Positions 22,673 through 52,457 of a stretch of DNA of 64,000 bases are shown here, in pieces. Every line of letters begins with the position of its first letter. The first letter of the stretch is position 1. The position numbers were made by a program, and so were the translations under genes. This DNA is from Arthrobacter sp. KBS0703 (GTDB lineage: Bacteria; Actinomycetota; Actinomycetes; Actinomycetales; Micrococcaceae), in assembly GCF_002008315.2 (NCBI RefSeq), contig NZ_MVDG02000001.1:2232001-2296000 (forward strand), read 5' to 3'. Under the pieces are notes generated by a model. The model was not told the DNA's origin, did no database searches, and was given only the letters and a program-made list of their open reading frames with translations.

Positions 22673-23812
22673 TTACTGCAGTACCCGCCATCCGCGGTCA
22701 TTGAGGGCTTCGATGAGGAGATCGTGCCTGTTGGGGAGAACGGACAGTTCCACCATGCCGACGTTTTGGCCGGATGAGTGGTCGAGCCGCAGGTCCTCCA
22801 CGTTGACGCCGATCTCGCCGATCTCCGTCAGGAGCCGGGCGATCTGGCCCGGCTTGTCGTCCACGAGGACGGTCAGCCAGGAATACGCCTGCGGCGGCCC
22901 CCCGTGCTTGCCAGGGATCCGTGCCTGCCCGGCGTTGCCTTCGCTGATCAGCTGGGCAAGGTCCAGGTGGGCGCCCGGGGCCGTTGGATCCTCCAGCGTG
23001 CCGATCAGCCTGTTCAGGTCCTCGCGGACTCCGTGCAGGATGCCAACGACCTTTTCGGCGTTGGCCCCAAGAATCTGCACCCAGAGCGTGGGATCACTGG
23101 CGGCGATGCGCGTCACGTCCCGCAGCCCGTTGCCGGAGAGGGACAACGCGGGCAGCGGAGTGCCCTGCAGCCGGCTGGCCAGCAGCGACGACATGACCTG
23201 GGGCAGGTGCGATACGAGCGCTACGGCCTCGTCGTGTTCGTCCGCGGTGAACTGCGAGACGACGGCGCCAAGGTCGCCCGCCAGGGCGCGGGCGGCCTGC
23301 AGCGCCGCGGGAGAGGACTCCTCGGCGGGGCACACCACCCAGGGCATGGACGTGAAGAGCTCGCCGCGTGCGGCAACAGGCCCGGACTTCTCGCGCCCTG
23401 CCATGGGGTGCGTTCCGACGTACCGCGACAGGTCCACGCCGCGGCGGCGCAGTTCGTCCAGGATGGCCGCCTTGACGCTGGCGATGTCCACGACGGTGGC
23501 CTCCGGGTAGTCAGCCAGTGCACGTTCCACGACGTCCGCCGTCACGTCCGGCGGAGCCGCCACGACGACGAGTTCGGGCTGCTCCTGGCCCAGTGCGTCC
23601 AGCGGCAGGCCGGCGCCGATGTCCACGGCGACGGCCTGGTTGGTGGGCGACGGGTCAGAGAGGTACACCTGTCTCTTATACACATCTAGATGTGTATAAG
23701 AGACGCCCCGGCCGCGCAGGCCGAGGCCGATGCTGGCGCCGAGCAGCCCGGTGCCGATCACGGCGACCGGGCCGTTCAGGTGCCCGCGACCGTGCGTGCG
23801 GAAAGCAGACAT
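22673..23812 (-). CDS. tyrA: Prephenate dehydrogenase, with an in-frame adapter insert in this assembly
   Basis: Converts prephenate to 4-hydroxyphenylpyruvate (or arogenate to tyrosine) with NAD(P). The Rossmann loop VIGTGLLGASIGLGL is near residue 18, GTHPMAGREKSG provides the catalytic His region, and a C-terminal ACT-like part (LTVLVDDKPGQIARLLTEIGE) suggests feedback control by tyrosine. The frame is open over 379 residues only because a 36-base artefact (23669-23704) happens to be a multiple of three. It adds the foreign peptide [11 protein letters not shown] after GLGLRGRGV, right behind the cofactor loop. Without it, the protein would be about 367 residues, normal for the family. Its end abuts cmk. 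Confidence 0.93.
   Translation of the reverse strand: MSAFRTHGRGHLNGPVAVIGTGLLGASIGLGLRGRGVSYTHLDVYKRQVYLSDPSPTNQAVAVDIGAGLPLDALGQEQPELVVVAAPPDVTADVVERALADYPEATVVDIASVKAAILDELRRRGVDLSRYVGTHPMAGREKSGPVAARGELFTSMPWVVCPAEESSPAALQAARALAGDLGAVVSQFTADEHDEAVALVSHLPQVMSSLLASRLQGTPLPALSLSGNGLRDVTRIAASDPTLWVQILGANAEKVVGILHGVREDLNRLIGTLEDPTAPGAHLDLAQLISEGNAGQARIPGKHGGPPQAYSWLTVLVDDKPGQIARLLTEIGEIGVNVEDLRLDHSSGQNVGMVELSVLPNRHDLLIEALNDRGWRVLQ
23669..23704. other. Back-to-back Tn5 mosaic ends (Nextera adapter) inside tyrA
   Basis: CTGTCTCTTATACACATCT is followed directly by its reverse complement, lacking only the last two bases. This exact 19-mer is the engineered hyperactive mosaic end used by Tn5 transposase kits; natural Tn5/IS50 ends differ at several positions. 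The pair is therefore a library adapter left at a contig join. The flanking tyrA sequence is colinear, so the join is in the right place. Confidence 0.95.
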
Positions 23813-23815
23813 GCC

Positions 23816-25046
23816 TTACAGCCCCACGGACGCCAGCAGGTGGCCGACTTCCTGCTTGCCGAGGTTGCGGATGCTCCCCTGGCGCTGGTCGCCCAGGCCG
23901 ATGGGGCCCACCTTGACGCGCACCAGGCGCAGCACGGGGAATCCGACGGCGTCGAAGAGCCGGCGGACAATACGGTTCTTGCCCGAGTGCAGCACGACTT
24001 CGATGAGCACATGCCCGGGAGTCGAATCAACGAGCCGGAACGAGTCCACCGAGGCGATGCCGTCCTCCAGTTCAACGCCGGCCTTCAGCTGCGCGCCGAT
24101 GCCCTGCGGGAACGGCCCCCGGACCTGGACCAGGTACGTCTTGGGAACCTCGTAGGAAGGGTGCGTCAGGCGGTTGGCCAGTTCGCCGTCGTTGGTCAGC
24201 AGCAGGAGGCCCTCGGTGGCGACGTCCAGGCGGCCGACATGGAAGAGGCGCTCTCCATGGGTGTTGCGGACGAAGTCGCTGATGCAGGGACGCCCGTCCG
24301 GGTCCTCCATGGTGGACACGACGCCCTTGGGCTTGTTGAAGACCATGTACACGAGGGACTCATCGAGCTGGATGCGCAGGCCGTCCACGTGGATAACGGA
24401 CGCCTTGGGATCGACGCGGACACCGAGCTCGGTGACTACCTGGCCGTCGACTTCACGCGGCCTTCGGCGATCATCTCTTCGCAGACGCGCCGCGAAGCCA
24501 CTCCCGCCTGCGCCATGACCTTCTGCAGGCGGACGCCGTCGGCGTCGTGCAGTTCGGACTGCGGCACGGGACCGCTGGGGCCGCGCTTGCGCGAAGGCTT
24601 GCGGACCGCACCGAGGCTCTGGCCGAACCGTTCGCCGCCGAATGCGCGCGTGCCGAAGGTCTTGGCCGCAGCGGACCGCGGCTTGGGCTTGAGCGCGCCG
24701 GGGGTGCCGGGCGCCTTTCCTGCCCCGGGCTTGCGGGCTCCGGGCTTCCGGACTGCCGGCTTGGCGCCGGACTTCCAGTCGCCAGCGGCGGCCGGCCGCC
24801 GTCTCGCCGGCGGGCGATTCGTCGGGATCGACGAAAGGCTCCTCCCGCGGCCTGGGTGCCTTGTAGGGGCGGTCGCCGCCCTTGGAGAAGTCCCGCTGGC
24901 CGGCGCCGAAGCCGCCGCCGCGGGTGTCTCTTATACACATCTAGATGTGTATAAGAGACAGGTCCTGCGCTGCCCGCTGAATTTCGTTCCGGACCTTTAC
25001 GTCCTGAACTTTTACGTGGTGAACCCTGGCGTCCCGCCTGTGTCAT
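23816..25046 (-). CDS. rluB: Ribosomal large-subunit pseudouridine synthase B, frame broken by artefacts
   Basis: An RsuA/RluB-type enzyme that makes pseudouridine in 23S rRNA. Three frames are needed to read it. From ATG 25046 the basic N-terminus MTQAGRQGSPRKSSGRKG runs to the adapter pair at 24925-24961. Next comes GFGAGQRDFSKGGDRPYKAP down to about 24790. A one-base slip near 24780-24800 leads into DWKSGAKPAVRKPG...VRLQKVMAQAGVASRRVCEEMIAEGRV, the S4 domain. A missing base near 24453 returns to EVDGQVVTELGVRVDPK and the catalytic domain, with GRLDVATEGLLLLTNDGEL holding the active Asp. The C-terminus is complete. The gene follows scpB as in other actinobacteria. Its damage is most simply sequence error, not decay. 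Confidence 0.88.
24925..24961. other. Back-to-back Tn5 mosaic ends (Nextera adapter) inside rluB
   Basis: Thirty-seven bases match the paired mosaic ends CTGTCTCTTATACACATCT and AGATGTGTATAAGAGACAG, lacking only the first C. The insert shifts the rluB frame and supplies false start and stop codons (MCIRDT on the minus strand). It is an assembly artefact. Confidence 0.95.
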
Positions 25047-25153
25047 GACCCGTCCTTCGTTGTGTTGACCGGCAACGGTTGTCCTAGGACAACACTAGCC
25101 AGCCGTGCAGATTAAATCTGCCCTGGTGAATACTGTTGCGCAGGCAAAACTGC

Positions 25154-25828
25154 CTACATTCTTCCGGCGTCATAGAACTCTTCAATTCCTTCAAGCCCCG
25201 GAAGGTGCGGTGAAAGCTGAGGCAACTCAGCCACCGAGCCGATTCCCATGCGTTCAAGGAAATACGACGTCGTACGGTACAGGACAGCGCCTGACTCCGG
25301 ATCTGTTCCGGAGTCCTCGATCAGCCCCCGCTGGGTCAGCGTCCGCACGACAGAGTCAACATTGACCCCGCGAATTGCAGACACCCTCGCCCTGGAAACG
25401 GGCTGCCGGTACGCGATGACGGCGAGCGTTTCGAGCGCCGCCTGCGTCAGCCTGGCCGTCTGTCCCTCCAAGACGAAGGCACCGACGACGTCAGCGAATT
25501 CAGCCCTGGAGTAGATGCGCCAGCCACCGGCGACATTCCGCAATTCAAAGCCCCGGGGGCTGGAGGTGAAGCCAGCGTTACTGGCAATTTCCATATCCGG
25601 GGCTTTAACAGTATAGCCGTCATACTCGCGCTGCAGTTCCAGCAGCAGGTTCTCCACGGCCGCCACGGTCAGGTTGAGTCCCGCGGCGAGGTCCGTTGCC
25701 GATGCCGGCTGGTCCAGCACCATCAGGACGGCCTCGAGCGCAGCGCGCGCTCCGCCCGGCAGCGCCGTGACATCGGTGCCGCCGCTGTCCGTGTCATCCG
25801 ACGACGGTTCCTGCACAGGTTTCCTCAC
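25154..25828 (-). CDS. scpB: Segregation and condensation protein B
   Basis: A kleisin-binding winged-helix protein of the SMC-ScpAB condensin. The 224-residue product has an acidic 25-residue leader, then ARAALEAVLMVLDQPASATDLAAGL and LQREYDGYTV in the first winged helix. The hallmark [67 protein letters not shown] forms the second, ending with TSYFLERMGIGSVAELPQL. A GTG at 25828 overlaps the scpA stop by 4 bases, so the two are made together. The rluB gene follows about 107 bases downstream. Confidence 0.95.
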   Translation of the reverse strand: MRKPVQEPSSDDTDSGGTDVTALPGGARAALEAVLMVLDQPASATDLAAGLNLTVAAVENLLLELQREYDGYTVKAPDMEIASNAGFTSSPRGFELRNVAGGWRIYSRAEFADVVGAFVLEGQTARLTQAALETLAVIAYRQPVSRARVSAIRGVNVDSVVRTLTQRGLIEDSGTDPESGAVLYRTTSYFLERMGIGSVAELPQLSPHLPGLEGIEEFYDAGRM

Positions 25829-26703
25829 GGCTGTTCCTCATATTCTTCGGTCAGGTGGTCGCTGCTCCACTCCGCGCCGGGCGCCGTCCAGCGGACGGTG
25901 AGGTCACCCAGCGGCGCAAGCTGGTTGAAGGCCACCACCTGGTCGCGGAACAGCTCAAGCAGGGCCAGGAAGCGGGCAACCACCACCAGCGTGGATTCTG
26001 CATCTGCAATCAGGGCGCGGAACGACAGTGGCCTGCCCTGCTGCAGGCGCAGTCCGATCAGCTCAGCCTGTTCCTTGACGCTGACGGGGCTGCCGTGGAG
26101 GTGCGCCAGCCCCACTTCGGTGGGCGCGGGGGTCTTGGGTTTCAGGGCAGTTTCCGCGAGGGCGGCGAACTGCCGAGGCGTATGCTTCCAGACGAGCTCC
26201 GGCAGCATGGCCGCGAAGTGCTCTTCCAGCGCCACCTGCCTCGGGTACCGCCGAGCCTCCAGCTCGAGCGTGGCATCCAGCAGCGCCGCCACCTGCTTGA
26301 ACGCCTTGTACTGCAGCAGCCGCGCAAAGAGCAGGTCCCGCGCCTCCAGCAGGGCGACGTCTTCGTCGTCCTCGACCTCGCCGGCCGGAAGCAGGCGTGC
26401 AGCCTTCAGATCCAGCAGGGTGGCAGCGATGACGAGGAACTCGCTGGCCTCATCAAGGGCCCACTCCTCCCCCAGTTTCTGCAGGTTCCGGATGTACTTG
26501 ATGAACTCATCGGTCACTGTGGCCAACGCCACCTCGGTGATGTCCAGCTGGTGCTTGGAGATCAGGCCCAGAAGCAGGTCAAACGGGCCGGTGAAGTTCG
26601 CCAGCCGGACTTCGAAGCCGGGCTTCCGGACTTCCGGCGGGGTCCCGCCGTCGTCCGCCTGCTGGCCGCGCTGCGCGAGCGGCGTTGCCGACTCAGCCGA
26701 CAT
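25825..26703 (-). CDS. scpA: Segregation and condensation protein A (kleisin)
   Basis: The kleisin subunit that bridges SMC heads. It has 292 residues, with the conserved N-terminal block GFEVRLANFTGPFDLLLGLISKHQLDITEVALATVTDEFI at about residues 27-67. A middle region LDEASEFLVIAATLLDLKAARLLP follows, and the C-terminal winged helix includes FRALIADAESTLVVVARFLALLELFRDQVVAFNQ. The first 25 residues are polar and variable. The ATG at 26703 is five bases from the parA stop, so parA-scpA-scpB form one operon, as in Mycobacterium Rv1708-Rv1710. Confidence 0.95.
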   Translation of the reverse strand: MSAESATPLAQRGQQADDGGTPPEVRKPGFEVRLANFTGPFDLLLGLISKHQLDITEVALATVTDEFIKYIRNLQKLGEEWALDEASEFLVIAATLLDLKAARLLPAGEVEDDEDVALLEARDLLFARLLQYKAFKQVAALLDATLELEARRYPRQVALEEHFAAMLPELVWKHTPRQFAALAETALKPKTPAPTEVGLAHLHGSPVSVKEQAELIGLRLQQGRPLSFRALIADAESTLVVVARFLALLELFRDQVVAFNQLAPLGDLTVRWTAPGAEWSSDHLTEEYEEQP

Positions 26704-26708
26704 CCAGG

Positions 26709-27620
26709 CTAGGGCGCGCCGCCGCGCGAGATGAGTTCCTTGGCGAGGCGGCGGTAGGCGTCGGCGCCGATGTGGTTGCCGGCGTAGCTGGTGATGGGTT
26801 CGGCGGCCACAGTGGCATCGGCGAACTTGATGGAACGCTTGATGACGGTCTCGAAGACTTTGTCGCCGAAGGCTTCCACGAGGCGCGTAATGACCTCGCG
26901 GCTGTGGAGCGTGCGGGCGTCGTACATGGTGGCGAGCACGCCGTCCACCTGCAGCCGCGGGTTGAGGCGGTCCTGGACTTTGTCGATGGTCTCGACCAGG
27001 AGGGCCACCGCCCGCAACGCGAAGAATTCGCAGATCAGCGGGATGATGACGCCGTGGGCGGCCGTCAGGGCGTTGACGGTGAGGAGCCCGAGGGACGGCT
27101 GGCAGTCGATGAGGACGACGTCGTAATCGTCTTCAACCTTCTTCAGCGCCCGGTCCAGCACCTGTTCGCGGGCAACCTCATTGACCAACTGGACCTCGGC
27201 AGCGGAAAGGTCGATGTTGGCGGGCAGGAGATCAACGTTTTCCACGCCGGTCTGGTGGATGGCATCGCGGATGTCCACCTTGCGGTCCATGAGGACGTTG
27301 TAGACAGTGAGATCAAGTTCGTGGGGGTTGACGCCCAGCCCGGCGGACAATGCACCCTGGGGGTCGAAGTCCACCAGGAGCACGCGGCGGCCGTATTCCG
27401 CCAGCGCGGCCGCGAGGTTGATGGTGGACGTGGTCTTACCCACGCCGCCCTTCTGGTTGACCATGGCAATCACACGGGCCGGTCCATGGGAGGACAGCGG
27501 CGCGGGCTCCGGAAATTCGCGGTAGGGACGTCCTGTGGGACCCATCACGGCGTCTTCCAGGTCGAGTTCCGTGCCTTCCAGAGTTGCTGAACCCTGTTCG
27601 CTGCTCACGTATCTATCCAC
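26709..27620 (-). CDS. ParA-family ATPase of the scpAB operon (Rv1708-like)
   Basis: A 303-residue Soj/ParA-type ATPase. After a 45-residue polar leader comes ARVIAMVNQKGGVGKTTSTINLAAALAEYG (P-loop), VLLVDFDPQGALSAGLGV (motif A'), DYDVVLIDCQPSLGLLTVNALTAAHGVIIPL (Walker B) and DGVLATMYDARTLHSREVI. It sits at the head of the scpA-scpB operon, where its homologue is found throughout actinobacteria, and it has no parB beside it. It is not the chromosomal parA near the origin. The start used is GTG 27620; a GTG four codons later (27608) is equally plausible because neither has a clear ribosome site. Role in chromosome or septum positioning is inferred. Confidence 0.9.
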   Translation of the reverse strand: MDRYVSSEQGSATLEGTELDLEDAVMGPTGRPYREFPEPAPLSSHGPARVIAMVNQKGGVGKTTSTINLAAALAEYGRRVLLVDFDPQGALSAGLGVNPHELDLTVYNVLMDRKVDIRDAIHQTGVENVDLLPANIDLSAAEVQLVNEVAREQVLDRALKKVEDDYDVVLIDCQPSLGLLTVNALTAAHGVIIPLICEFFALRAVALLVETIDKVQDRLNPRLQVDGVLATMYDARTLHSREVITRLVEAFGDKVFETVIKRSIKFADATVAAEPITSYAGNHIGADAYRRLAKELISRGGAP

Positions 27621-27800
27621 ACTTTCGATGACGGTGATTGTTCTCTGCCGCTGAATGCCCGGGCCGCTATCTGCCCGGCGCCCATGCTGCTTCCACCCAA
27701 GGCTACAGCGCCCGACACGGCATTCGGTGGAACTTGACTTTTGATGGCGCTTGAGCCTTGACCTTTTACCTGAGGTCGAAGGTTGGTGTTCCGCCCAAGC

Positions 27801-27837
27801 AAACCGCCCGCACAGGCTGGGCCTGTACGGGCGGTTG
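27801..27837. terminator. Stem-loop terminator downstream of the dicarboxylate transporter gene
   Basis: Arms AACCGCCCGCACAGG and CCTGTACGGGCGGTT pair with two mismatches around a five-base loop, about 35 bases past the stop of the transporter gene on the minus strand. A short A/T-containing flank is present. It also separates this block from the parA-scpAB operon. The rest of the 249-base gap (27621-27869) shows no gene. Confidence 0.7.
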
Positions 27838-27869
27838 GCCGGCGCCGAGGCGCCGTGGACTCGGGAGTC

Positions 27870-29207
27870 CTAGGCGTGGGCAGGAATTGCCTTCTCCTGG
27901 GTTTCGAGCACTCCGTGATGGGCCATCATGGTCTGCTCGTCGAAGGGCTCTTCGCCGGACAGGACGCGGCTGACCTGTTCGCCGTCGATCTCCTTGACCC
28001 AGGTTCCGATCAGGACCGTGGCCACGGCGTTGCCGGTGAAGTTGGTCAGGGCGCGGGCCTCGGACATGAACCGGTCGATGCCGACGATCATGCCGACGCC
28101 GCCGAGGAGTTCCGGCCTGTGGGCCTGCAGGCCGGCCGCCAGGGTGGCAAGGCCTGCACCGGTCACACCGGCTGCGCCCTTGGAAGCGATGATCATGAAG
28201 ATCAGCAGGGAGATCTGGGCCCCCAGGTCCAGAGGGGTTCCCATCGCGTTGGCCACGAACAGTGATGCCATGGTCAGGTAAATGGCAGTGCCGTCCAGGT
28301 TGAACGAGTAGCCCGTGGGCACGGTCACGCCGACCACCGGCTTGGAGACGCCCAGGTGTTCCATCTTGGCGATCAGTCGGGGCAGCGCGGCTTCGGAGGA
28401 CGAGGTGGAGAAGATCAGGAGGTACTCACGTGCGAGGTACTTCATGAGCTTGAAGATGTTCACTCCGGCCACGACCTGCAGCAGGCCGCCCAGGATGACG
28501 ACGATGAAGAGTGCGCAGGTGATGTAGAAAGCGACCATGAGGGTGAACATGCTCACGATGGCCTGGAAGCCCGTGGCGCCGACAACCGCGGCGATGGCAC
28601 CGAAGGCGCCGACCGGGGCGAGCCACATGATCATGATCAGGATCCGGAAGACGACTGCCTGGCCGAGGCCGATGGCCTTCAGGACCGGGGCGCCCTGCGG
28701 GCCCATTTTCTGGAGGGCGAAGCCAACGAGGATCGCGGCGAGCAGCGTGGGAAGCACGGGGACGTCACTCGGGATGATGCCCAGCAGGAAGTCCACGGTG
28801 CTGTCCGTTGCGGCCTTCTTGTTCGGGTCGTAGGGAGCAAGCTCCAGTCCCTCACCGGGGTGGATGATGTTGCCGACAACGAGACCGATGGCCAGCGCGA
28901 ACGTCGACATGACAACGAAGTAGCCGAGGGCAAGACCGCCCACCTTGCCGACCGTTGCGGCCTTGGCAATGGAGCCGATGCCCAAAACGATGGTGCAGAA
29001 GATGATCGGGGCGATCATCATCTTGATGAGCTTGATGAACCCGTCCCCCAGCGGCTTCAGCGATTTGCCGACCTCCGGGAACAGCAGCCCCACCAGTGCG
29101 CCCAGGATGACGGCGGCGATGACGGCAATGTAAAGGTAGTGGGACTTGTCCAGTCCCTTGCGCCCGGTCTTGGCCGGTGCGGCCGACTCTCCTCGTTGAG
29201 AAGCCAT
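27870..29207 (-). CDS. C4-dicarboxylate:cation symporter (DctA/DAACS family)
   Basis: A membrane carrier of 445 residues that would import succinate, fumarate or malate with protons or sodium. It has the glutamate-transporter fold: LYIAVIAAVILGALVGLLFP (first helix), GFIKLIKMMIAPIIFCTIVLGIG, the hairpin motif FSTSSSEAALPRLIAKM, and VTVPTGYSFNLDGTAIYLTMASLFVA. KGAAGVTGAGLATLAAGL is the second hairpin. The ATG at 29207 has AAGGAG seven bases upstream; the frame is open further up but without family similarity. It is divergent from a two-component pair of the CitA/DcuS type, which is the usual partner for such carriers and probably controls it. Confidence 0.93.
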   Translation of the reverse strand: MASQRGESAAPAKTGRKGLDKSHYLYIAVIAAVILGALVGLLFPEVGKSLKPLGDGFIKLIKMMIAPIIFCTIVLGIGSIAKAATVGKVGGLALGYFVVMSTFALAIGLVVGNIIHPGEGLELAPYDPNKKAATDSTVDFLLGIIPSDVPVLPTLLAAILVGFALQKMGPQGAPVLKAIGLGQAVVFRILIMIMWLAPVGAFGAIAAVVGATGFQAIVSMFTLMVAFYITCALFIVVILGGLLQVVAGVNIFKLMKYLAREYLLIFSTSSSEAALPRLIAKMEHLGVSKPVVGVTVPTGYSFNLDGTAIYLTMASLFVANAMGTPLDLGAQISLLIFMIIASKGAAGVTGAGLATLAAGLQAHRPELLGGVGMIVGIDRFMSEARALTNFTGNAVATVLIGTWVKEIDGEQVSRVLSGEEPFDEQTMMAHHGVLETQEKAIPAHA

Positions 29208-29346
29208 GATGTGTCTCCTTATGGATAATCTGGAAGACGCTTCGGCACAGTCTCTGGGCTCTTCGCGTCCGTCCTTTGTGATTTCCATCATTCGCCACTG
29301 AGTGACTTGGCTCACCGTTGCGTTCATATTGGTCATAGGAGGTGTT

Positions 29347-31718: not shown

Positions 31719-31730
31719 GTTTCGACAAGC

Positions 31731-33635: not shown

Positions 33636-33706
33636 GAAGAGTTCCTGTCCACTGCGTTGTGTTGCGGCCCATGCTATCCCCGGCGCTGGTCCGCCGACAA
33701 GGGTTG

Positions 33707-33777: not shown

Positions 33778-33808
33778 CTGAAGGCGATCACCAACGAAGG
33801 GAGGCGGG

Positions 33809-40195: not shown

Positions 40196-41308
40196 TCAGT
40201 CCGAAATCCGGAGCGACGTGATCATACGTTTGGCGTCCGCGTACGCCGGCGTCTTCATGTAGGCACGGGCAGCATCGAGGTTGGCAAACTGCAGAACACC
40301 CTGCTGCGGTGAATTACCCGGCCCCATCTGGAGAGCACCGGCGAACATGTAGATCGGCGAGGCGGATGTTCCGTTGACCAGGTTGTAGATCGTGCATGCT
40401 TTGCCGTCCGGGCCGCCCGCCGTGCTCGTCAGTCCATAGGTGGCGATGACTCCGCCGGCATCCTCCATGGCACGGAAGGCGAACCGCGGGGTCACGGAAT
40501 CCGGAACCTGCGGGTTGTACGGGAGGTCCACTTCGGCGAAGTCCAGCACCGTGTAGGGGACGGGCTCCGTGAAGCAGGCACCGCCCACCGCTCCGGACCC
40601 TCCGTAGGTCAAGATCGCCACGATCTTTCCGGCGTGGTCCTTCACCTCGATGTTGACGGCGTCCGGGGCAGCGCCTGCGGCGGGAACAACGGTCCAGGTG
40701 CCGGGGTGGTCGAAGCTGACCTTCCCGCCGCTGCTCCGGTACGTGGCCCAGCCGGCGGGCAGCGGCCCTGCACTTGCGCTGGCGGCGGCGGCGGCGGACG
40801 TTGCCGGCGCTGCGGGCTCGGCCGGCAGCGGAGGCAATGCCACGGGAGGCGTCGGGGGCGCCGCCGTGGCTACCGTCGCCGAGGCGGCGCCCGGCGAATT
40901 GGGGCTGTCTCTTATACACATCTAGATGTGTATAAGAGACAGGGGTGTGACTGGCCGCGCGGTCTCGGTGCTGGCCGCCGGCGCCGGCACGGGAGCGGGA
41001 CTACCGACGTTTCCGGCTACGACGCCCACCGTGATGACGGCCGCAGCGGCCAGCCCGGCCACGGAAGCCCTGAGCACGGTCCGGTTGTTCCGGCGCCCGT
41101 CCGGGCGTGCCTGCGAGGCAGAAGCCCGGCCGGCGTCGTCCGTGAAGGCACGAATCCCGCCGTCTGCCCCGGGGACTCCCCCGGGCGCTGGCACTGCAGA
41201 CAAATGAACCGCCGGCGCCGCCGTGACACCAATGGGACTGCCGGGCGGCTGGTCCGGAACCGCGACGCGGGGCCGGGCGTTCCTCATAAGCTCTTCAATG
41301 CGGTCCAT
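40196..41308 (-). CDS. Paralogous membrane partner of ECF sigma factor, interrupted by adapter sequence
   Basis: This gene is split by an adapter pair at 40905-40942. The N-terminal part (from ATG 41308) reads MDRIEELMRNARPRVAVPDQP, a hydrophilic cytoplasmic segment, then the helix VLRASVAGLAAAAVITVGVVAGNVG and a Pro/Ala/Thr linker. After the artefact comes an Ala/Pro-rich linker, then the outside domain LPAGWATYRSSGGKVSFDHPGTWTVVP and the ending ARAYMKTPAYADAKRMITSLRISD. Architecture and both ends match the product at 38182-39093, so the two are paralogues. The artefact contains a stop (TAG) and a false start; without it a single protein of about 360 residues is expected. Some linker bases may have been lost. 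Confidence 0.8.
40905..40942. other. Back-to-back Tn5 mosaic ends (Nextera adapter), full 38 bases
   Basis: Both 19-base mosaic ends are complete and directly abutted, CTGTCTCTTATACACATCT then AGATGTGTATAAGAGACAG, forming a perfect palindrome. It splits the sigma-partner gene with an in-frame stop. Since the two gene halves lie in the same frame and 38 is not a multiple of three, at least two native bases were lost or the flanks are imperfect. Confidence 0.96.
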
Positions 41309-42034: not shown

Positions 42035-43112
42035 TTAGCCCAGGGCCCGGGGGTGGGCGGCGGCGTAGATCTCCCGCAGGGTATCCGCCGTCACCAGGGT
42101 GTAGACCTGCGTGGTGGTCACGGACGCGTGCCCGAGGAGTTCCTGGACGACGCGCACGTCCGCGCCGCCCTCAAGCAGGTGGGTGGCGAACGAGTGGCGG
42201 AGCGTGTGGGGGGAAACGTCCTTGGTGATGTTGGCCTTGTCCGCCGCAGCCTTTAGGATGGTCCAGGCGCTCTGCCTGCTGATGCGCCCTCCCCTGGCGT
42301 TTAGGAAAAGCGCGGGCGTGCCCTTGCCTTTGGCGGCCAGCAGGGGGCGGCCGCGGACCAGGTAGGCATCAAGCGCCCGGGCTCCGTACGAACCCAGCGG
42401 AACGAGCCGCTCCTTGGAGCCTTTGCCGAACAGGCGTACGATCGCGGGCCCGTGCTCGGCCGGCTGCAGCGAGATGTCGTCCACGTCCAGCCCCACGGCT
42501 TCGCTGATGCGCGCCCCGGTGGAGTAGAGGAACTCGAGCAGCGCCCGGTCCCGCAGGCCCGTGGCGGTGTCCGTACCGGCCGCTTCCAGGATCCTGGTGA
42601 CCTCGTCCACCGTGATGGCCTTGGGCAGCCTTTTCCCCGGCATGGGCGGGTGGACATCGCTGGCCGGGTCCGCCGTCGTGGTCCCTTCCAGTGCCCAGAA
42701 CTTGTGCAGTCCGCGGACGGCGACCACCGTCCGCGCCGCCGAGCGCACCCCAAGCGGGGTCCCGCCGTCGGAGCCTGTCTCTTATACACATCTAGATGTG
42801 TATAAGAGACACGTGGTGGCGGGTCACGTCGCCGGGGCTGCTGACGCCCTCGGCGGCGAGGTAGTTCGAGTAGCGGGCAAGGTCACGACGGTAGGCAGAG
42901 AGCGTGTTGGCCGCCAGGCCGCGTTCGACGCCCATGTGCTGGAGGTAATCCGTCACCGCGCGGTCGATGGCCGTCCGCGGGCGTTCCGGGCGCGCGGGGA
43001 CCGGAACGGCTTCTGCCGGCGCCGGATCCCCGCGCCCCGGACCCGTTGGAGTGCCTGCTTCCCCCGCGGCGTCCGCCGGAGGCCGTTCTGCTGCTGCCGT
43101 GCCCGCAGTCAT
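42035..43112 (-). CDS. xerD: Tyrosine recombinase XerD, interrupted by adapter sequence
   Basis: A site-specific recombinase that resolves chromosome dimers at dif. The N-terminal DNA-clamp domain reads [34 protein letters not shown], preceded by a Pro/Ala-rich leader, and stops at TRHHV where the adapter pair begins. After the artefact the frame changes and the sequence resumes [26 protein letters not shown]. The catalytic domain holds [13 protein letters not shown] (Arg), [39 protein letters not shown] with His-x-x-Arg, His and the nucleophile Tyr. Probably about ten codons of native sequence at the join are missing. Start ATG overlaps the Nudix gene stop by one base. Confidence 0.92.
42775..42811. 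other. Back-to-back Tn5 mosaic ends (Nextera adapter) inside xerD
   Basis: The full CTGTCTCTTATACACATCT is followed by AGATGTGTATAAGAGAC plus one base, lacking the terminal G. The xerD frame on the two sides differs, so the join either replaced or lost native bases. It is a library artefact. Confidence 0.95.
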
Positions 43113-43774: not shown

Positions 43775-43801
43775 CGCGCCGTCCTTACGTTGTGGCTGTA
43801 T

Positions 43802-45622
43802 CTACTTTGCGGTGACCGTACGGGCAGCCTTGCCGGCGGCACCGGCTTCCACAGCTGCCGCTTCCGGAGCTGCTGCTTCCCCGGCCGTCGTCCCGGCGGC
43901 CGCCGTGCCGTTGTCGGCGCTGCCGCTCTGGTGCTCCAGGGCAGCCTTGACGAGGCCGGCGAATAGCGGGTGCGGCCGGGTGGGCCGTGAGCTCAGCTCC
44001 GGGTGGGCCTGGGTTGCCACGTAGTACGGGTGCACCTCGCGGGGCAGCTCCACGTATTCCACGAGCTTGCCGTCGGGGGACGTTCCGGAGAACACCAGCC
44101 CCTGCTGGGCAATCTGCTCGCGGTACTTGTTGTTGACCTCGTAGCGGTGGCGGTGGCGTTCGCTGACGGTGGTGGTGCCGTAGGTTTCGGCAATGACGGA
44201 ACCTTCGTCAAGCTTGGCTTCGTAGAGGCCCAGGCGCATGGTGCCGCCGAGGTCTCCCTTGCCTTCAACGATGTCCAGCTGCTCTTCCATGGTGGCGATC
44301 ACCGGGTACTTGGAGTCCGGCTCGAACTCGCTGGAGGACGCTCCCTCCAGGCCCACCACGTTCCGGGCGTACTCAATGACCATGCACTGCAGGCCCAGGC
44401 ACAGGCCCAGGACCGGCAGCTTGGTTTCGCGGGCGAACTTCAGCGCGCCCAGCTTGCCTTCAAGGCCTCGGATGCCGAACCCGCCCGGCACGCAAATGGC
44501 GTCCACGCCCTCCAGCGACCGAACGGCGCCTTCATGCGTTTCGCACTCATCCGACGGGACCCAGCGGATCTTGACCTTGGCGTCGTTGGCGAAGCCGCCG
44601 GCGCGCAGGGCCTCGGTCACGGAGAGGTAGGCGTCCGGGAGGTCGATGTACTTGCCCACGAGGGCAATCTCGACCTCGTGCTTGGGGTTGTGCACGGCCT
44701 CCAGCAGCTTGTCCCAGCTGGTCCAGTCGACGTCCTTGAACGGCAGGTCCAGGGCACGGACGATGTAGGAGTCCAGGCCCTGCGTGTGCAGCGTCTTGGG
44801 GATGTCGTAGATGCTGGGGGCATCTGCGGCGTTGACCACGGCGTCGATGTCGACGTCGCACATGCGGCCGATCTTCTCGCGCATGGCGTCGGGCACTTCG
44901 CGGTCCGAGCGGATCACGATGGCCTCGGGCTGGATGCCGATGGAGCGGAGGGCTGCCACGGAGTGCTGCGTGGGCTTGGTCTTGAGCTCCTGCGAGGGAC
45001 CGATGTACGGGACCAGCGACACGTGCAGGAAGAAGACGTTGCCGCGGCCGATGTCCTGGCGGACCTGGCGGGCGGACTCAAGGAAGGGCTGCGACTCGAT
45101 GTCGCCCACCGTGCCGCCGATCTCGGTGATGATGACGTCCGGCGCGTTCTTGCCCTCGGCGGGAAGCCGCATGCGGCGCTTGATCTCATCGGTGATATGC
45201 GGGATGACCTGGACGGTGTCGCCGAGGTACTCGCCGCGGCGTTCCTTGGCGATCACCGTGGAGTAGACCTGGCCGGTGGTCACGTTGGCCGAGCCCTCGA
45301 GGTTCTCGTCGAGGAAGCGCTCGTAGTGGCCGATGTCCAGGTCCGTCTCGGCGCCGTCGTCTGTGACGAAGACCTCGCCGTGCTGGAAGGGGTTCATCGT
45401 GCCCGGATCCACATTCAGATAGGGATCGAGCTTCTGCATAGTTACAGACAAACCGCGTGCCCGCAGCAGGTGGCCGAGGCTCGAAGCCGTCAGTCCCTTA
45501 CCTAGCGAGGACGCCACACCACCGGTGACGAAGATGTGTTTGGTCGTCTTGGACGAGCCCGGGAACCGGGAATTTACACGGGAATTTGATCGCTGCACCA
45601 CGGAATTCGAGCCTATCATCAA
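43802..45622 (-). CDS. pyrG: CTP synthase
   Basis: Makes CTP from UTP, ATP and glutamine. The 606-residue enzyme has the synthetase domain with [23 protein letters not shown] (nucleotide loop), [33 protein letters not shown], and the Rossmann linker [18 protein letters not shown]. The glutamine amidotransferase domain has [11 protein letters not shown], the catalytic Cys in [17 protein letters not shown], and the C-terminal HPE triad part. An Ala/Glu-rich tail of about 50 residues ends the chain. The start at ATG 45622 is the first; a GTG six or seven codons downstream is possible. Homologue of Rv1699. Confidence 0.97.
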
Positions 45623-45745
45623 TTGAGCCTTCCACGGATCGGATAACGCATCCCCAACTGCCCAAGTTTGCCGTGCCCGTGCGCCATGGGCAAGGGCGGC
45701 ACGAATCGGGCGGCCGAATCCGGCGCCGGTTCAGGCCGGACGGGA

Positions 45746-47485
45746 TCAGGCGCGCTGCGGCAGCAGCTTGGCGTCGTCCAGCAGTTCCTGGGCGTGCGCC
45801 TGAGCCGTTTCGGAGTCCTCCTGGCCGGCGAGCATCCGGGCCAACTCCCTGACCCGCTCCGCTTCGTCCAGGAGCTGGACATCACTGGAGGTGAACCCGG
45901 TGGCGGTGCCGCCGTCGGATCCCCGCACCGAGGTCTTGGTCACGCGGATGTGCTGATCCGCGAAGGCAGCCACCTGGGGCAGGTGGGTGACCACCAGGAC
46001 CTGCACGTGCTGCGCCAGCATGGCGAGCCGCCGGCCGATCTCGACGGCGGCACGCCCGCCCACGCCGGCATCCACCTCATCGAAGACGAACGTGGGCACC
46101 GGATCAACGGCGGCCAGCACCACCTCGATGGCGAGCATCACCCGGGAGAGCTCGCCGCCGGAGGCACCCTTGCCCAGCGGCCGGGCGGGCGCGCCGGAGT
46201 GCGGCTGGAGCAGGAAGGAAATCTCGTCCGCGCCGTGGGGCCCCAGCTGTGCGGCGGCTTCGATGGTGATAACGAGCGTGGCATCGGCCATGGCCAGGGC
46301 CTTCAGCTCCGCGCTGACCCGTGCGGACAGCTCCTTGGCCGCTTTGGCCCGGATCTTGCTGATGGCCGTTGCCTGTTTCCTGAGTTCGGCCTCGGCCCGC
46401 ACCACTTCGGCGTCGAGGCCCTCGATCCGGGTGGAATCGTCCTGGAGTTCGTCGAAGCGGACACGGGCGTTTTCCGCCCACACCAGGACCTCGTCGATGC
46501 TCGGCGCGTACTTGCGGACCAGCTTGGCCAGGGCCGCCCGCCGGTCTTCGATCTCGGCCAGCCGCTCCGGCCCCTCCGAATCCAGCCCGGCCTGGTAGCT
46601 GGCAAGCTCGGTGGCGATGTCGTTGAGCAGGAAGCCCACTTCGGCGAGTCGGGCTGCGGCCGTGCCGAGCTCCTCATCGTGCTCGGCCACGTGCTCCAGC
46701 GTCCGCTTGGCCGCGTCCACGAGGGACGTGGCATCGCCGGTCTCTGCGAAGTCCTCGGCAATGATGGCCTGGTGCGCCGTGGTGGCGGCGATGCGGAGTT
46801 CCTCGACGTTGGCGAGCTTCACGGCCTCGGCCTTGAGCGCATCGTCCTCCCCCGGCTGCGGGTCCACGGCATCGATCTCCGCCAGGGCCGCTTCCAGCGA
46901 CTCCGCTTCGCGCAGCCGGTCCCTCGCCGCGCTGCGGAGCGATTCGAGCTCGGCCTGGCTGGATTTCCACGAGCCGTAGAGTTCCTGGAAACTGGCCAGC
47001 GCGGCGGCGAGGTTTTCTCCCGCGAACCTGTCGAGGGCTTCACGCTGCGCCGCCGAGCCCTTGAGCCGGATCTGGTCCGACTGCCCGTGTACCACCACGA
47101 GCGATTCGCCGATTTCGGCCAGCACACCCACCGGCGCACCCCGGCCGCCCAGGAAGGCCCGGCTGCGTCCGTCCGCGCCCAGACGCCGTGCCAGCAGCAA
47201 TTCCGCGCCGCCGTCGAACTCCTCGATCTCCGCGCCCGCATCACGGGCGCGTTCCAGGGCGAAGTGCCCGGCGTCGAGCCGCACCACGGCTTCAGCGGAG
47301 GCGCTCTTCGCTCCGCTCCGCACCGCGCCCGCATCCGACCGCGCGCCGAGCAGCAGCCCGACGGCGGTGACCACCATGGTCTTGCCGGCACCGGTCTCGC
47401 CGGTAACCACGCTGAGCCCGGGGCCCAGCGGCAGCGTGGCGTCGGCGATGACGCCCAGATCTCGGATTCTCAGTTCTTCAAGCAT
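45746..47485 (-). CDS. recN: DNA repair protein RecN
   Basis: An SMC-like ATPase that acts early in double-strand break repair. The 579-residue protein begins MLEELRIRDLGVIADATLPLGPGLSVVTGETGAGKTMVV (P-loop). The middle is a long coiled coil rich in Ala, Glu and Leu, and the C-terminal ATPase half has GASGGELSRVMLAIEVVLA (signature) and TFVFDEVDAGVGGRAAVEIG (Walker B), then QVLVVTHLPQVAAFADQHIRV. It sits two to three bases downstream of nadK, as Rv1695-Rv1696. SOS control is common for recN; no clear LexA box was recognised here. Confidence 0.96.
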   Translation of the reverse strand: MLEELRIRDLGVIADATLPLGPGLSVVTGETGAGKTMVVTAVGLLLGARSDAGAVRSGAKSASAEAVVRLDAGHFALERARDAGAEIEEFDGGAELLLARRLGADGRSRAFLGGRGAPVGVLAEIGESLVVVHGQSDQIRLKGSAAQREALDRFAGENLAAALASFQELYGSWKSSQAELESLRSAARDRLREAESLEAALAEIDAVDPQPGEDDALKAEAVKLANVEELRIAATTAHQAIIAEDFAETGDATSLVDAAKRTLEHVAEHDEELGTAAARLAEVGFLLNDIATELASYQAGLDSEGPERLAEIEDRRAALAKLVRKYAPSIDEVLVWAENARVRFDELQDDSTRIEGLDAEVVRAEAELRKQATAISKIRAKAAKELSARVSAELKALAMADATLVITIEAAAQLGPHGADEISFLLQPHSGAPARPLGKGASGGELSRVMLAIEVVLAAVDPVPTFVFDEVDAGVGGRAAVEIGRRLAMLAQHVQVLVVTHLPQVAAFADQHIRVTKTSVRGSDGGTATGFTSSDVQLLDEAERVRELARMLAGQEDSETAQAHAQELLDDAKLLPQRA

Positions 47486-47488
47486 GGT

Positions 47489-48514
47489 TCACTTCTCCGT
47501 CAGAGGATCGGATTCGTCGTCGGACGCGGCAGCGTGCTGCGCGGAGGGCGGCGTCATGGGCCGGGGGGTGCGCACGATGGGCACCGGTCCGGTGTGGACG
47601 GTCTCTGACTGCGGCACTGGTCCGCGCCAGCCATGGATGGGCAGTTCAAACTTGCGGACCAGCCGTGCCGAGAACGGCGTCTGGTGGGTGCGCGCCAGCC
47701 GGACCGGCGTGGCGGACCGGGTGACTTCGACGCGGGCGCCGGGCGGCAGGTCCACCGAACGCCGGCCGTCGCACCACAGCACGCCCTGGGCATCCGTCCG
47801 GTTCAGCACCTCGACGGCCAGCCGGGACCGCGGCGACACCACCAGCGGCTTCGCGAACAGGGCGTGGGCGCTGATGGGGACGATCAGCAGGGCTTCCACT
47901 TCCGGCCACACCACCGGGCCGCCGGCGGAGAAGGCGTAGGCGGTGGAGCCCGTGGGAGTTGCCAGCACCACGCCGTCGCAGCCGAATGAGGTCAGCGGGC
48001 GTTCGTCCACTTCGGTGACCACTTCAAGCATCCGCTCACGGTTGCCCTTTTCGATGGCGGCTTCGTTGAGGGCCCAGGTGTGCCAGATCTTCTGGCCACG
48101 GACCCAGACCTGGACGTCGATGGTCATCCGCTCCTCCACCGTGTACTCACGGCTGGCGATCCATTCGACCGTCTGGGCGAGGTCCGCACGCTCGCTTTCG
48201 GCCAGGAAGCCGACGTGGCCAAGGTTGACGCCCAGCAGCGGCACGTCCACTTCCCGCACCAGTTCCGCGGCGCGCAGGATGGTGCCGTCCCCGCCAAGGA
48301 CCATGACCAGTTCGACGTCGGGGAGCTGGATGTGGTCGTGCAGGATCTCGACCGGCTGCTCCAGCCGGCCGAAAAACCCTTCCATGTCCCCCAGCTCGGA
48401 CTTCTGCATCACGGGGATGATGCCCGAGGCGTGCAACTGGGCGCACGCCTCCCAGGCAGCCTTCAGGGATTCTTCGCGGCCGGTGTGGGCAAGTACCAGT
48501 ACACGCCTGCTCAT
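47489..48514 (-). CDS. nadK: NAD kinase
   Basis: Phosphorylates NAD to NADP. The 341-residue enzyme begins MSRRVLVLAHTGREES, has the GGDGTILRAAELVR motif, the LGVNLGHVGFLAE region, the conserved NE in ALNEAAIEKGNRERM, and GSTAYAFSAGGPVVWPEVEALLIVPI. A polar C-terminal extension of about 45 residues is a feature of actinobacterial members. The ATG at 48514 is used; the frame is open further upstream but overlaps tlyA. It is 13 bases from the tlyA stop and precedes recN, all on one leftward transcript. Confidence 0.95.
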   Translation of the reverse strand: MSRRVLVLAHTGREESLKAAWEACAQLHASGIIPVMQKSELGDMEGFFGRLEQPVEILHDHIQLPDVELVMVLGGDGTILRAAELVREVDVPLLGVNLGHVGFLAESERADLAQTVEWIASREYTVEERMTIDVQVWVRGQKIWHTWALNEAAIEKGNRERMLEVVTEVDERPLTSFGCDGVVLATPTGSTAYAFSAGGPVVWPEVEALLIVPISAHALFAKPLVVSPRSRLAVEVLNRTDAQGVLWCDGRRSVDLPPGARVEVTRSATPVRLARTHQTPFSARLVRKFELPIHGWRGPVPQSETVHTGPVPIVRTPRPMTPPSAQHAAASDDESDPLTEK

Positions 48515-48527
48515 CGGGTTCCGCTCT

Positions 48528-49340
48528 CTAATGGTTCGGCCAGATCTTTCCCAGCAACGCAGCCACGGCTGCGTCCCGCTCTTCGATCTTAGGCAAGTCT
48601 TCGGCAATTCTTCGTTTTATCCACAGGAAGTATTCGACATTTCCGTCCTGCCCGGGGAGGGGGCTGGCGGCCAACCCGCGCAGTTCGAGGCCTGCGTCGA
48701 TGGCTGCCCCCGCCACTTTACCGACCGCCATCCGCCGTTCGCGCTCTGACGTGACCACGCCGGTGCGCCCCAGCCGGTCCTTGCCGATCTCGAACTGCGG
48801 CTTGACCATGAGCACCAGGTCACCGCCGGGGCTGGTGCATGCGGCCAGGGGCGCCAGCACCAGCGTCAAGGAGATGAAGGACAGGTCCGCAACCGTCAGC
48901 TCGGCCCTGCCGCCGATCTCTTCCGGATCCATGTAGCGGACGTTGAGCCCTTCGTGGACGGTTACGCGCGCGTCGCTTCGGAGCTGCGGCACCAGCTGTC
49001 CGTGCCCGACGTCGACCGCCACCACGTGCGCGGCGCCGCGCCGCAGCAGGACATCGGTGAAACCGCCGGTGGAGGCACCCGCGTCCAGGCACCTTTTGCC
49101 GCCGACGGCGACGGCGGGAAATGCGTCCAGCGCCCCTGCAAGTTTGTGGCCGGCCCGGCTGACGTACGCATCCGTGGCGTCTTCCGCCACGGACAGCTCG
49201 CGGTCATCGGCCATCTGTAGGGACGCTTTTCCGAGCACATCGCCCGCCGAGGAAACCTTGCCCTCGGCGATGAGCCGCGCGGCATGCGTGCGGGACCGCG
49301 CCAGTCCCCTGCTGACGAGCAGCTGGTCGAGTCTGGCCAT
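48528..49340 (-). CDS. tlyA: TlyA-type 16S/23S rRNA 2'-O-methyltransferase
   Basis: Methylates 16S and 23S rRNA cytidines; its loss gives capreomycin resistance in mycobacteria. The 270-residue protein has an N-terminal S4 domain (MARLDQLLVSRGLARSRTHAARLIAEGKV) and a FtsJ-like methyltransferase domain (KCLDAGASTGGFTDVLLRRGAAHVVAVDVGHGQL with the SAM loop, then VADLSFISLTLVLAPL). LVLMVKPQFEIGKD contains the catalytic Lys. It lies between a small conserved protein and nadK, as Rv1694-Rv1695. Confidence 0.95.
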   Translation of the reverse strand: MARLDQLLVSRGLARSRTHAARLIAEGKVSSAGDVLGKASLQMADDRELSVAEDATDAYVSRAGHKLAGALDAFPAVAVGGKRCLDAGASTGGFTDVLLRRGAAHVVAVDVGHGQLVPQLRSDARVTVHEGLNVRYMDPEEIGGRAELTVADLSFISLTLVLAPLAACTSPGGDLVLMVKPQFEIGKDRLGRTGVVTSERERRMAVGKVAGAAIDAGLELRGLAASPLPGQDGNVEYFLWIKRRIAEDLPKIEERDAAVAALLGKIWPNH

Positions 49341-49342
49341 GG

Positions 49343-49606
49343 TCAGGCGGCCCCGGGGCGGGGTGCTGCACCGGGCACGGACGACGTGTCCTGGTTCAGC
49401 GCTTCGAGCAGGGCGTCATGCATGTCCGTGTACGCGTCAGGGTGCTCGGAGACCGGGAGCCCAGGAACGTCCCGGACCCGGCGGAGGACCTCCTGGACGG
49501 CACCGTCGGACACTGCACTGGAGTCTTCCGCCCCGGAAAGAGGCAGTTCCGGCCAGGCAACGTCCGGTGCGGCCCCGGAAAGGTCATTCTGATTCAGCTC
49601 GGTCAT
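49343..49606 (-). CDS. Small hypothetical protein between HAD phosphatase and tlyA genes
   Basis: An 87-residue protein with MTELNQNDLSGAAPDVAWPELPL at the start and a helical SDGAVQEVLRRVRDVPGLPVSEHPDAYTDMHDALLEALNQ in the middle. No membrane segment, Cys cluster or known domain is visible. Start and stop fit tightly between the two neighbouring genes (9 and 2 bases), so it is almost certainly translated. Small proteins at the same position, such as Rv1693, occur in other actinobacteria, but their function is unknown to me. Confidence 0.75.
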   Translation of the reverse strand: MTELNQNDLSGAAPDVAWPELPLSGAEDSSAVSDGAVQEVLRRVRDVPGLPVSEHPDAYTDMHDALLEALNQDTSSVPGAAPRPGAA

Positions 49607-49615
49607 GGCACCAGT

Positions 49616-50605
49616 CTATTGATCCAGCCACTCAAGCTCGGGAGCCGTGGGTTCCGCCGCATGGGGGTGGGCCGCCCACCAGGCAGCGCATGCCGCACGC
49701 CACGAATCGAGGCTCGCCTTGTCACCCCGGACCCGGATGCCGTTGGCGTCGACGGATGCCGTGGCGTCCCCGCAACGGTACGTTCCGTCGCCGCCCTCCA
49801 CCTCCGGATACGGCTCGTACAGCCCGGTCAGGTCGTTGATGATGTACCCAGGCCGTTCGTCAGTGCGGGCGGCCAGGATGGTTTCCAGGGTGTCGACGCC
49901 GGTCAGGACGGCGACCGTGGCAAAGCCGGCTCTGTTGCCGCCCAGGATGTCCGTGTCCAGCCTGTCGCCCACGACGAGCGGCCGCTCCGCGGACAGCCGC
50001 TTCGCCGCGGCATGGAAAAGTGGAGCCTCGGGTTTGCCTGCGACGAGGGGGGTTTGGCGTGTTGCTGCCGCGACGGCAGCCACGAGGGTGCCGTTGCCCG
50101 GCGCAATTCCGCGGGCCTGCGGAATGGACATGTCCGTGTTGGTGGCGACCCACAGTGCCCCGCCTGCCACGACATACGACGCTTCAGCCAGGTCCTTCCA
50201 GCCGATCCCCGGGTTGAAACCCTGGACCACGGCCACCGGCTTGTCCTCGGCGCCGTGCACGGGCTTGAGGCCAACGAGCTCTATTTCGTGGGCAAGCGCC
50301 GGGCTGCCGGTGATCAGGACTGCGGCGCCCGCCGGAAGGAGCGATGCCAGCAGCTCCGCCGCCGCCTGCGAGGAGCTCACCACCTGGTGGTCCTCGGCCG
50401 GGGCGCCGAGCTCGCGCAGGTGGGCGGCAACCTGGGCCGGTGTGCGTGAGGCGTTGTTGGTCACGTAGCCGAGGCCAATGCCGGCGCCGGCCAGCCGCAG
50501 CAGCGACTCAACCGCGCCGGGGATGGCATGCGGGCCTGCGTAAACCACGCCGTCCAGGTCCGAGAGCAGGGCGTCGAACCGCGAAATGAGCTGAGCGTCA
50601 GTCAT
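49616..50605 (-). CDS. HAD superfamily (IIA) phosphatase
   Basis: A 329-residue member of the NagD/phosphoglycolate-phosphatase-like HAD-IIA group. Motif I is LLSDLDGVVYAGP with the nucleophile Asp, motif II is GLGYVTNNASRTPAQVA, a C2-type cap follows, and motifs III/IV are KPEAPLFHAAAKRL and VVGDRLDTDILGGNRAG. The C-terminal ~50 residues form an extra domain rich in Asp and Trp. The homologue Rv1692 is a glycerol 3-phosphate phosphatase; substrate here is inferred. It lies 9 bases upstream of the small protein gene and 6 downstream of the repeat/TPR gene. Confidence 0.9.
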   Translation of the reverse strand: MTDAQLISRFDALLSDLDGVVYAGPHAIPGAVESLLRLAGAGIGLGYVTNNASRTPAQVAAHLRELGAPAEDHQVVSSSQAAAELLASLLPAGAAVLITGSPALAHEIELVGLKPVHGAEDKPVAVVQGFNPGIGWKDLAEASYVVAGGALWVATNTDMSIPQARGIAPGNGTLVAAVAAATRQTPLVAGKPEAPLFHAAAKRLSAERPLVVGDRLDTDILGGNRAGFATVAVLTGVDTLETILAARTDERPGYIINDLTGLYEPYPEVEGGDGTYRCGDATASVDANGIRVRGDKASLDSWRAACAAWWAAHPHAAEPTAPELEWLDQ

Positions 50606-50611
50606 GCGCGG

Positions 50612-52457
50612 CTAGTCCTCCTGGCCCTCGTGCCGGGTGTCCTTGGCGGATGCCTCGCCGTCGCCGTCTTCGTCCTCATCCGGCTCCGCGGAGTCGGCGT
50701 CGGACTCGGCGTCGTCGGACTCAAAGTAGTCCGATTCGACGTCGTCGAGGTTGTCATCGGCGGACGCAGCTTCAGGCTGTTCAGGAGCCGTCTCGGCTGC
50801 CGGCGCGATGCCGGTGGCATGCTCCGAGGTCCGGGCTTCCTGGGGAGCAGCGTCTGTGGCGGCGTGGGCCATCAGCCGCTTTCGTTCGGCTTCCTCCCGG
50901 GCCTCCTCTTCCTCGTCCCAGCCGAGGTCGATGATGTCCGGCTCCTCGGAGACGCCCATGCCGAGGGCCTCCTCGGCGACGGCAGCCTGCCGCAGCCACT
51001 TCTCGGATTCGGCTCCGCGGCCCACTGCTGCGAGGGCGTCCGCGTAGGCACGGAACAGACGCGGGCTGTAGGAGAAGGCGCGGTTGATGTCCAGCTGCGG
51101 GATCTCCAGCTCGGCCACTGCAGCGTCCAGCTGGCCCAGATCCGAGCGCGCACCGGAGGCAACGATCGCCAGTTCCACCTTCCCGGGAGCGTCCAGGTCC
51201 TGGGCTTCTTCGGAGCGGACCACGTCCAGGGCACGGTCCGGGCGTCCCAGTCCGCGTTCGCAGTCCGCCATGACGGGAAGGTGGACGTTGGAGCCGCTGA
51301 TCCTGCGGTACGTGCGGAACTCGCGGAGGGCCTCGCCGTAGTGTCCGGCGGCGTAGGCGGTCAGGCCCACGGCTTCGCGGACGGCGGAAAGGCGTCCGCC
51401 GCGACGGCTGGCGGCCAGTGCATGCTGGAAGGCCAGCTCGGGTTCGTCATCAATGAGGCGTCCGGCCATGACCAGGTGGCGTGCCACCCATTCAGCGCTT
51501 TTGGCTTCGAGTGTCTTGATCTGGTGCTGTGTGGCCCGGTCCAGCTCCTTGCCTGTGACGTCCTCGTCGATTTGGGGAGAGCGCTCACGGTCCGGGCGGT
51601 TGGCACTGCGGAGGTCGCGGGCGTTGGGCACGCGGACCGGGCGGTCTTCTGCCCTGTCGCGGCCGAACTGACGCGGGCCTGAATCGTTGCGGTCAAAACT
51701 GCGCGGGGCCCGGTCCTGGCGGTCGCCGAACGGCTTGCGGTTCTCGCCGCCGCCGAAGCTGCGGCGCTCCCCCTCGCCATCACGACGGCGGTCGCCTTCG
51801 CCTTCGCGGCGCGGACGGTCGCCGAAGGGCTTGCGGTCACGGTCGCCGAAGGGCTTACGCTCGCCGGCACCGAAGCTGCGGCGCTCTCCGTCACGCTCGC
51901 CGCGCGGACGGTCACCAAACGGCTTGCGGTCACGGTCACCGAAGGGTTTGCGCTCACCCTCGCCATCGCGGCGCGGACGGTCACCAAACGGCTTGCGGTC
52001 ACGATCGCCGAACGGCTTGCGCTCACCCTCGCCATCGCGGCGCGGACGGTCACCAAACGGCTTGCGCTCGCCGTCACGCTCGCCGCGGGAGATGTGTATA
52101 AGAGACAGGCTTGCGCTCACCGGCGCCAAAGCTGCGGCGCTCACCGTCACCTTCGCGGCGCGGACGGTCACCAAACGGCTTGCGGTCACGATCGGCAAAG
52201 GGCTTCTTCTCGCCGCCGTCAAAGCCGCGGCGGTCGCCGTCGCCCTCCCGGCGCGGACGGTCAGCAAACGGCTTGCGGTCGTCGCCGCCCGGAGCCCGAC
52301 GGGGGCCGTCTGAGCCGCGGCCGTCCTTGGCACGGAAGCCGCGGGGGTCTCCGCCTGAGTTGTTGGTCCCCCTGAAAGGGCCGCCCTGTGATCCGCGGTT
52401 ACTGCCCGAGTATCCCCGGTCATTTCCTCCGCGGTTGCCGCCGTTGTGCTCAGCCAT
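50612..52457 (-). CDS. Arg-rich repeat protein with C-terminal TPR region, adapter inserted in repeats
   Basis: The gene begins at ATG 52457 (MAEHNGGNRGGNDRGY, AGGAGGA upstream). The N-terminal half is Gly/Asn/Arg-rich and contains many near-identical copies of RKPFGDRPRR(D/E)GE(G/R). A single mosaic end at 52090-52108 breaks the frame; taking out its 19 bases restores one frame exactly. The C-terminal half has a conserved stretch (KELDRATQHQIKTLEAKSAEWVARHLVMAGRLIDDEPELAFQHA), then TPR-like helices, and an acidic tail of about 80 residues. Homologues in actinobacteria are annotated as TPR proteins. The highly charged repeats suggest RNA, ribosome or partner binding, but no function is known. 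Repeat number here is unreliable. Confidence 0.8.
51700..52330. repeat. Coding tandem repeats (about 24-45 bp units encoding RKPFGD...)
   Basis: Short DNA units such as CGGTCACCAAACGGCTTGCG recur more than ten times with small changes, encoding RKPFGDR and RPRRDGEGE alternately. This repeat makes assembly ambiguous, and an adapter sequence lies inside it. The number of units in this window may be fewer than in the genome. Confidence 0.85.
52090..52108. other. Single Tn5 mosaic end (Nextera adapter) in the repeat gene
   Basis: AGATGTGTATAAGAGACAG is present as an exact 19-base match, without its partner. It gives the frame change in the repeat/TPR gene and supplies false terminal codons. As with the other four sites it is an artefact; here the repeat may have collapsed at the join. 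Confidence 0.95.

Follow-up and report, generated by a model that had tools for sequence, protein, structure and literature searches.

The Tn5 mosaic end is a hybrid between the outside end and the inside end of IS50; in adapter read-through from a Nextera library, a Nextera tail would follow it. Ordinary Nextera molecules are not known to carry two such arms abutting at their inner ends. Two mosaic ends joined in this way form a 38-base palindrome, and excerpts of one study describe a ring adapter, biotin-labelled and used on circularised fragments, with exactly this 38-mer as its sequence (PMC7357533). NxTrim is presented, in an excerpt of the cited text, as a trimming tool for the mate-pair junction adapter (PMC6298255). 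Adapter contamination of microbial genome databases has been described as well; that study counted a TruSeq 12-mer, concentrated at contig ends, in published assemblies whose accuracy was lowered, and the word "Nextera" is absent from its main text (PMC11536531). The case described here likewise concerns adapter in a published assembly, but the copies are internal to contigs. This kind of artefact is already known, and what we add is its identity as a mate-pair junction, its scale across a genome and the loss of real bases that accompanies it.

In the window, by which we mean the whole 64-kb stretch of Arthrobacter sp. KBS0703 DNA that was analysed, the Tn5 mosaic end CTGTCTCTTATACACATCT is present as nine arms of 19 bases at five places, all of them within coding sequence. 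Four of the five sites are back-to-back pairs of 36 to 38 bp, in which two mosaic ends are joined at their inner ends into the 38-bp palindrome that defines a junction adapter, and the fifth is a lone 19-mer. The extent of each site was measured against the 38-base palindrome (bases 1-38). The pairs, to which no strand applies, comprise bases 1-36 at 23669..23704, within ORF 22673-23812 (minus strand), which encodes prephenate dehydrogenase; bases 2-38 at 24925..24961, in the 5' part of a pseudouridine synthase gene (ORF 23816-24940, minus strand); bases 1-38 at 40905..40942, the sole complete 38-mer in the window, across the abutting ends of ORFs 40922-41308 and 40196-40921 (both minus strand); and bases 1-37 at 42775..42811, in a gene split into ORFs 42035-42748 and 42792-43112 (both minus strand). 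The single 19-base arm (bases 20-38) lies on the minus strand at 52090..52108, in the tandem-repeat coding region of ORF 50612-52495 (minus strand). An earlier, sequence-only reading had reported mosaic ends at these five sites, had placed all of them in coding genes and had described an exact 19-mer at each. The sites are all present, and the ORFs of the window bear out their position in genes, but exactness holds for six of the nine arms, the other three deviating at one or two outermost bases. In 100 dinucleotide-preserving shuffles of the window, no mosaic end was found, even when up to three mismatches were allowed.

The whole assembly (4,860,540 bases in 37 contigs) contains the 18-base mosaic-end core 380 times in forward and 376 times in reverse orientation, together with 324 back-to-back palindromes, searched as a 32-base core. 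Reversed-pattern controls for both searches gave no match in the assembly. Subtracting the paired arms leaves about 108 more, which are unpaired or damaged. The adapter events of the assembly amount to about 430, or about one per 11 kb, a figure that is approximate because damaged arms are counted unevenly. At least 124 palindromes lie within the window's own contig of 4.42 Mb, and the 400-kb stretch around the window contains 39 events, of which 24 are palindromes and 15 are single or partial copies. Full 38-mers account for 13 of these 39, another 11 fall short by one or two outer bases, and 15 match 18 to 32 unbroken bases. In each of the 24 palindromes, and likewise at the window's four paired sites, the arms abut directly, with no cargo. 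The flanks of the 39 events are GC-rich: the 20 bp closest to the adapter on either side have a GC content of 0.765, compared to a mean of 0.669 and a maximum of 0.709 in 1000 random draws. At G000:C1:2106358-2106439, two partial junction adapters were seen on either side of a genomic segment of about 19 bp.

Adapter read-through from an ordinary Nextera paired-end library, if it had remained in the contigs, would account for the same 19-mer, and a read-through pattern does occur in a relative: among 58 other relatives searched for the 18-mer, the one positive, a same-genus assembly (G014), carries seven mosaic-end copies, five of them starting at base 1 of a contig. However, when the expected Nextera tails were searched in the whole genome, one had no match and the other a single 14-mer match, and the 301 bases around that match contain no mosaic core. 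A TruSeq prefix searched in the genome also gave no match. Furthermore, the inner ends of two arms meet directly in 324 places, and we regard read-through as very improbable. The back-to-back arms and the lack of ordinary Nextera tails beside them therefore point to a mate-pair junction.

Furthermore, the edges of the adapter were examined using 100 distinct genome-side ends adjoining an intact mosaic end, taken from the 400-kb stretch and 30 small loci of the same genome. Position +1 is G in 58 of the 100 ends against 38% locally (p = 4.5e-5), and position +5 is A or T in 52 against 25% locally (p = 8e-9); a weaker enrichment was seen for a pyrimidine at +4 (70 of 100) and a purine at +6 (60 of 100). 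Among 282 ends taken from loci L031-L150, the most frequent pattern was G1, T2, Y4, W5, R6, A8, C9. It corresponds to the motif GTNYWRNAC, which is reported, in the excerpted text of PMC8224930, for two Illumina transposase kits, including Nextera XT. The adapter edges are Tn5 cut sites, the property that separates tagmentation kits from ligated ring adapters. This signature argues for a tagmentation kit rather than for ligation of an adapter to DNA that had been sheared, the procedure in the excerpts of PMC7357533. The kit was most likely Nextera Mate Pair, whose junction adapter shares the 38-mer, the 19-mer arms and the Tn5 edge signature with the sites described here. The earlier attribution to Nextera libraries thus stands as regards a Tn5 tagmentation origin but not as regards ordinary Nextera, since the tails are absent beside the arms and a mate-pair library is indicated instead. 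We are highly confident that the five sites are remnants of a mate-pair circularisation adapter.

We observed that genuine DNA is missing where the adapter stands. Each flank was aligned to up to four relatives, and placement was considered strict when no more than five bases per side were unaligned. By this measure 16 of the 39 sites could be placed and 23 could not; among 1000 random control positions, 666 were placeable and 334 were not. At 15 of the 16 placeable sites, 6-42 bp of genuine DNA are gone and 19-38 bp of adapter are in place. In contrast, 657 of the 666 placeable controls showed no difference, and losses of at least 6 bp were found at only three of the 666, one of these three falling in the range of 6-45 bp. 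For eight of the 15 sites, at least two relatives were available for comparison; they agreed exactly at seven, while the eighth gives 15 and 18 bp. Within the window, the loss is 6 bp at site 23669 in comparison with each of four relatives, 15 and 18 bp at site 24925 in comparison with two, and 30 bp at site 42775 in comparison with each of three; for site 40905 no alignable relative was found. The sixteenth placed site is the repeat site at 52090 (2284090), which lies outside the 15 and gives contradictory values (+12 and -381), as the relatives disagree there because of the repeats. The flanking genes had been described as colinear, which agrees with the flanks matching one place in the relatives at three window sites, but the joins are not lossless, given the bases gone at the 15 sites.

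At none of the 15 sites does the length of adapter inserted equal the number of bases lost, and at 12 the two are more than 5 bp apart. The net length change is not a multiple of three at 10 of the 15 (site 2256925 being taken as 19 or 22). A looser placement provided values for 24 of the 39 sites, of which the unreliable ones were not relied on: 2158322 gave -28 and -13 with more than 60 bases unaligned, 2360448 gave +135 with 76 unaligned, and the repeat site 2284090 gave -168, -354, -6 and +12. A mate-pair chimera joining distant loci was rejected, as both flanks, where testable, match one locus in a relative within tens of bases.

The consequences for the genes of the window differ from site to site. 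In the prephenate dehydrogenase gene (PF02153), the adapter at 23669 adds a 12-residue in-frame peptide, and the ORF encodes 379 aa compared to 369 aa, the length of 106 of the 120 retrieved proteins; the best-matching proteins come from Arthrobacter and Pseudarthrobacter. In the pseudouridine synthase gene (PF00849), the adapter at 24925 supplies a false start reading MCIRDT. Both cases agree with the earlier statement that the adapter generates spurious peptides. The adapter at 40905 terminates ORF 40922-41308 and begins ORF 40196-40921; neither ORF has a Pfam match, and the two are probably one gene cut in two. Likewise, the adapter at 42775 splits a tyrosine-recombinase gene, which we take to be of the XerC/XerD type, so that PF00589 is found on one of the resulting ORFs and PF02899 on the other. 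The repeat-rich ORF hit by the arm at 52090 has no Pfam match.

Two further observations concern these regions. The tandem repeats at 51700-52300 of the window encode GERKPFGDRDRKPFGDRPRR-like units, and contigs of several relatives stop at or near this locus (G002 C1, G028 C8, G009 C13 and G013 C17), so that the repeat copy number is unreliable in draft assemblies. Between 23705 and 24504, the window has 800 bases and all four relatives aligning over the full length have 801, a one-base shortfall that is probably a further small assembly error. By eye, from the ORFs, the frame of the pseudouridine synthase shifts near 24.45 kb, and relatives hold intact copies.

The adapter arms face outward like those of a cargo-free transposon, and their edges show the Tn5 target preference, both of which would also fit mini-transposon scars left by Tn5 mutagenesis in the living strain or a natural MITE-like element. 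However, matching 9-bp flanks were found at none of the 39 sites, the fewest mismatches being three, and real bases are lost rather than duplicated at 15 of the 16 placeable sites. Furthermore, an element with 324 copies and nothing between its arms would be required, and the exact 18-mer is missing from 57 of the 58 other relatives. An origin of this kind is hardly credible, and the sites differ from the ends of IS50/Tn5 in that their arms enclose nothing and a 9-bp target duplication is lacking. The view that none of these sites is a mobile element is thus upheld by the lack of both target duplication and cargo, and the genome-wide number, the Tn5 cut signature and the lost real bases substantiate the view that they are a technical artefact.

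A mate-pair junction origin suggests how the adapter could have entered the assembly. In vitro, hyperactive Tn5 would cut genomic DNA and put a mosaic end on each fragment end, and circularisation of the fragment would bring two mosaic ends back to back as the 38-base palindrome. The circles would then be sheared and sequenced, with the junction left untrimmed in the reads. At coverage holes, reads from both sides would run into the junction, and because the 38-mer is its own reverse complement, every such contig edge would carry an identical end. Neighbouring contig edges could then be joined through the 38-mer, and the uncovered 6-42 bp would be dropped. The breaks are presumably due to coverage holes, and the GC-rich flanks suit coverage dips. 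Conversely, a GC-rich composition of the missing segments was not supported as the cause of the holes: these segments have a GC content of 0.669 in the relatives, and their own composition therefore does not explain the coverage holes.

Several features do not fit a simple palindrome overlap, namely the single 19-mers, the truncated copies and the island at G000:C1:2106358-2106439. Adapter of the same origin could instead have been inserted by a gap filler or a read-based polisher working on an otherwise correct scaffold, an explanation that overlaps the preferred one and that the single and partial arms and the genomic island between two partial adapters would favor. However, a polisher overwriting base for base would equalise inserted and missing lengths, which are unequal at every one of the 15 sites. 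A gap filler inserting freely may be compatible with unequal lengths. We consider this explanation a serious possibility, albeit the less probable one; the truncated copies and the island hint at the involvement of a gap filler or polisher at some of the sites. The likeliest course would nonetheless be joining that used the palindrome as an overlap.

The palindrome is not confined to this assembly. In public genomes, at least 120 stretches from at least 19 named assemblies, counted from titles, carry it. These include assemblies with a documented mate-pair library: AT8 was built with a Nextera Mate Pair library according to an excerpt of PMC5552949, and VB511288 and VB-61278 with 3-kb mate-pair libraries, the kit not being named in the excerpts of PMC4384489 and PMC4384490. 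Compared to such leftovers, the present assembly stands apart by the at least 124 copies inside one 4.42-Mb contig, which replace real bases. Two chromosome-titled records, CP051244.1 and CP017948.1, one of them titled "complete sequence", also carry the junction palindrome, and seven contigs of the IMG/VR viral collection contain it (eight stretches); in five of these contigs it lies no more than about 50 bases from a contig end. The sequence-only reading had further held that the spurious peptides pollute protein databases. This is shown for a single entry among the 120 retrieved proteins, P0001, in which the 12-residue adapter peptide occurs twice in an unrelated gene (PF07992 and PF00070, no prephenate dehydrogenase domain). 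In the open-licence literature, no paper was found that contains the adapter peptide MCIRDR as text, and five other adapter peptide words yielded one paper, PMC4106830, for LSLIHI.

The adapter sites have no biological significance for this organism; they matter as data hygiene. The assembly is rated 99.99% complete and is the sole genome representing its species, yet it holds about 430 adapter events. The palindrome offers an easy screen, in which a match flags lost real sequence plus foreign sequence. Since real sequence is missing at the hits, the flanks alone do not yield the true gene. It seems rather likely that retained mate-pair junctions are a systematic and poorly catalogued source of hidden small deletions, each marking a spot where real bases were lost and usually frame-breaking in genes, and that many published genomes are affected even though they pass completeness checks, including records labelled as "complete" chromosomes.
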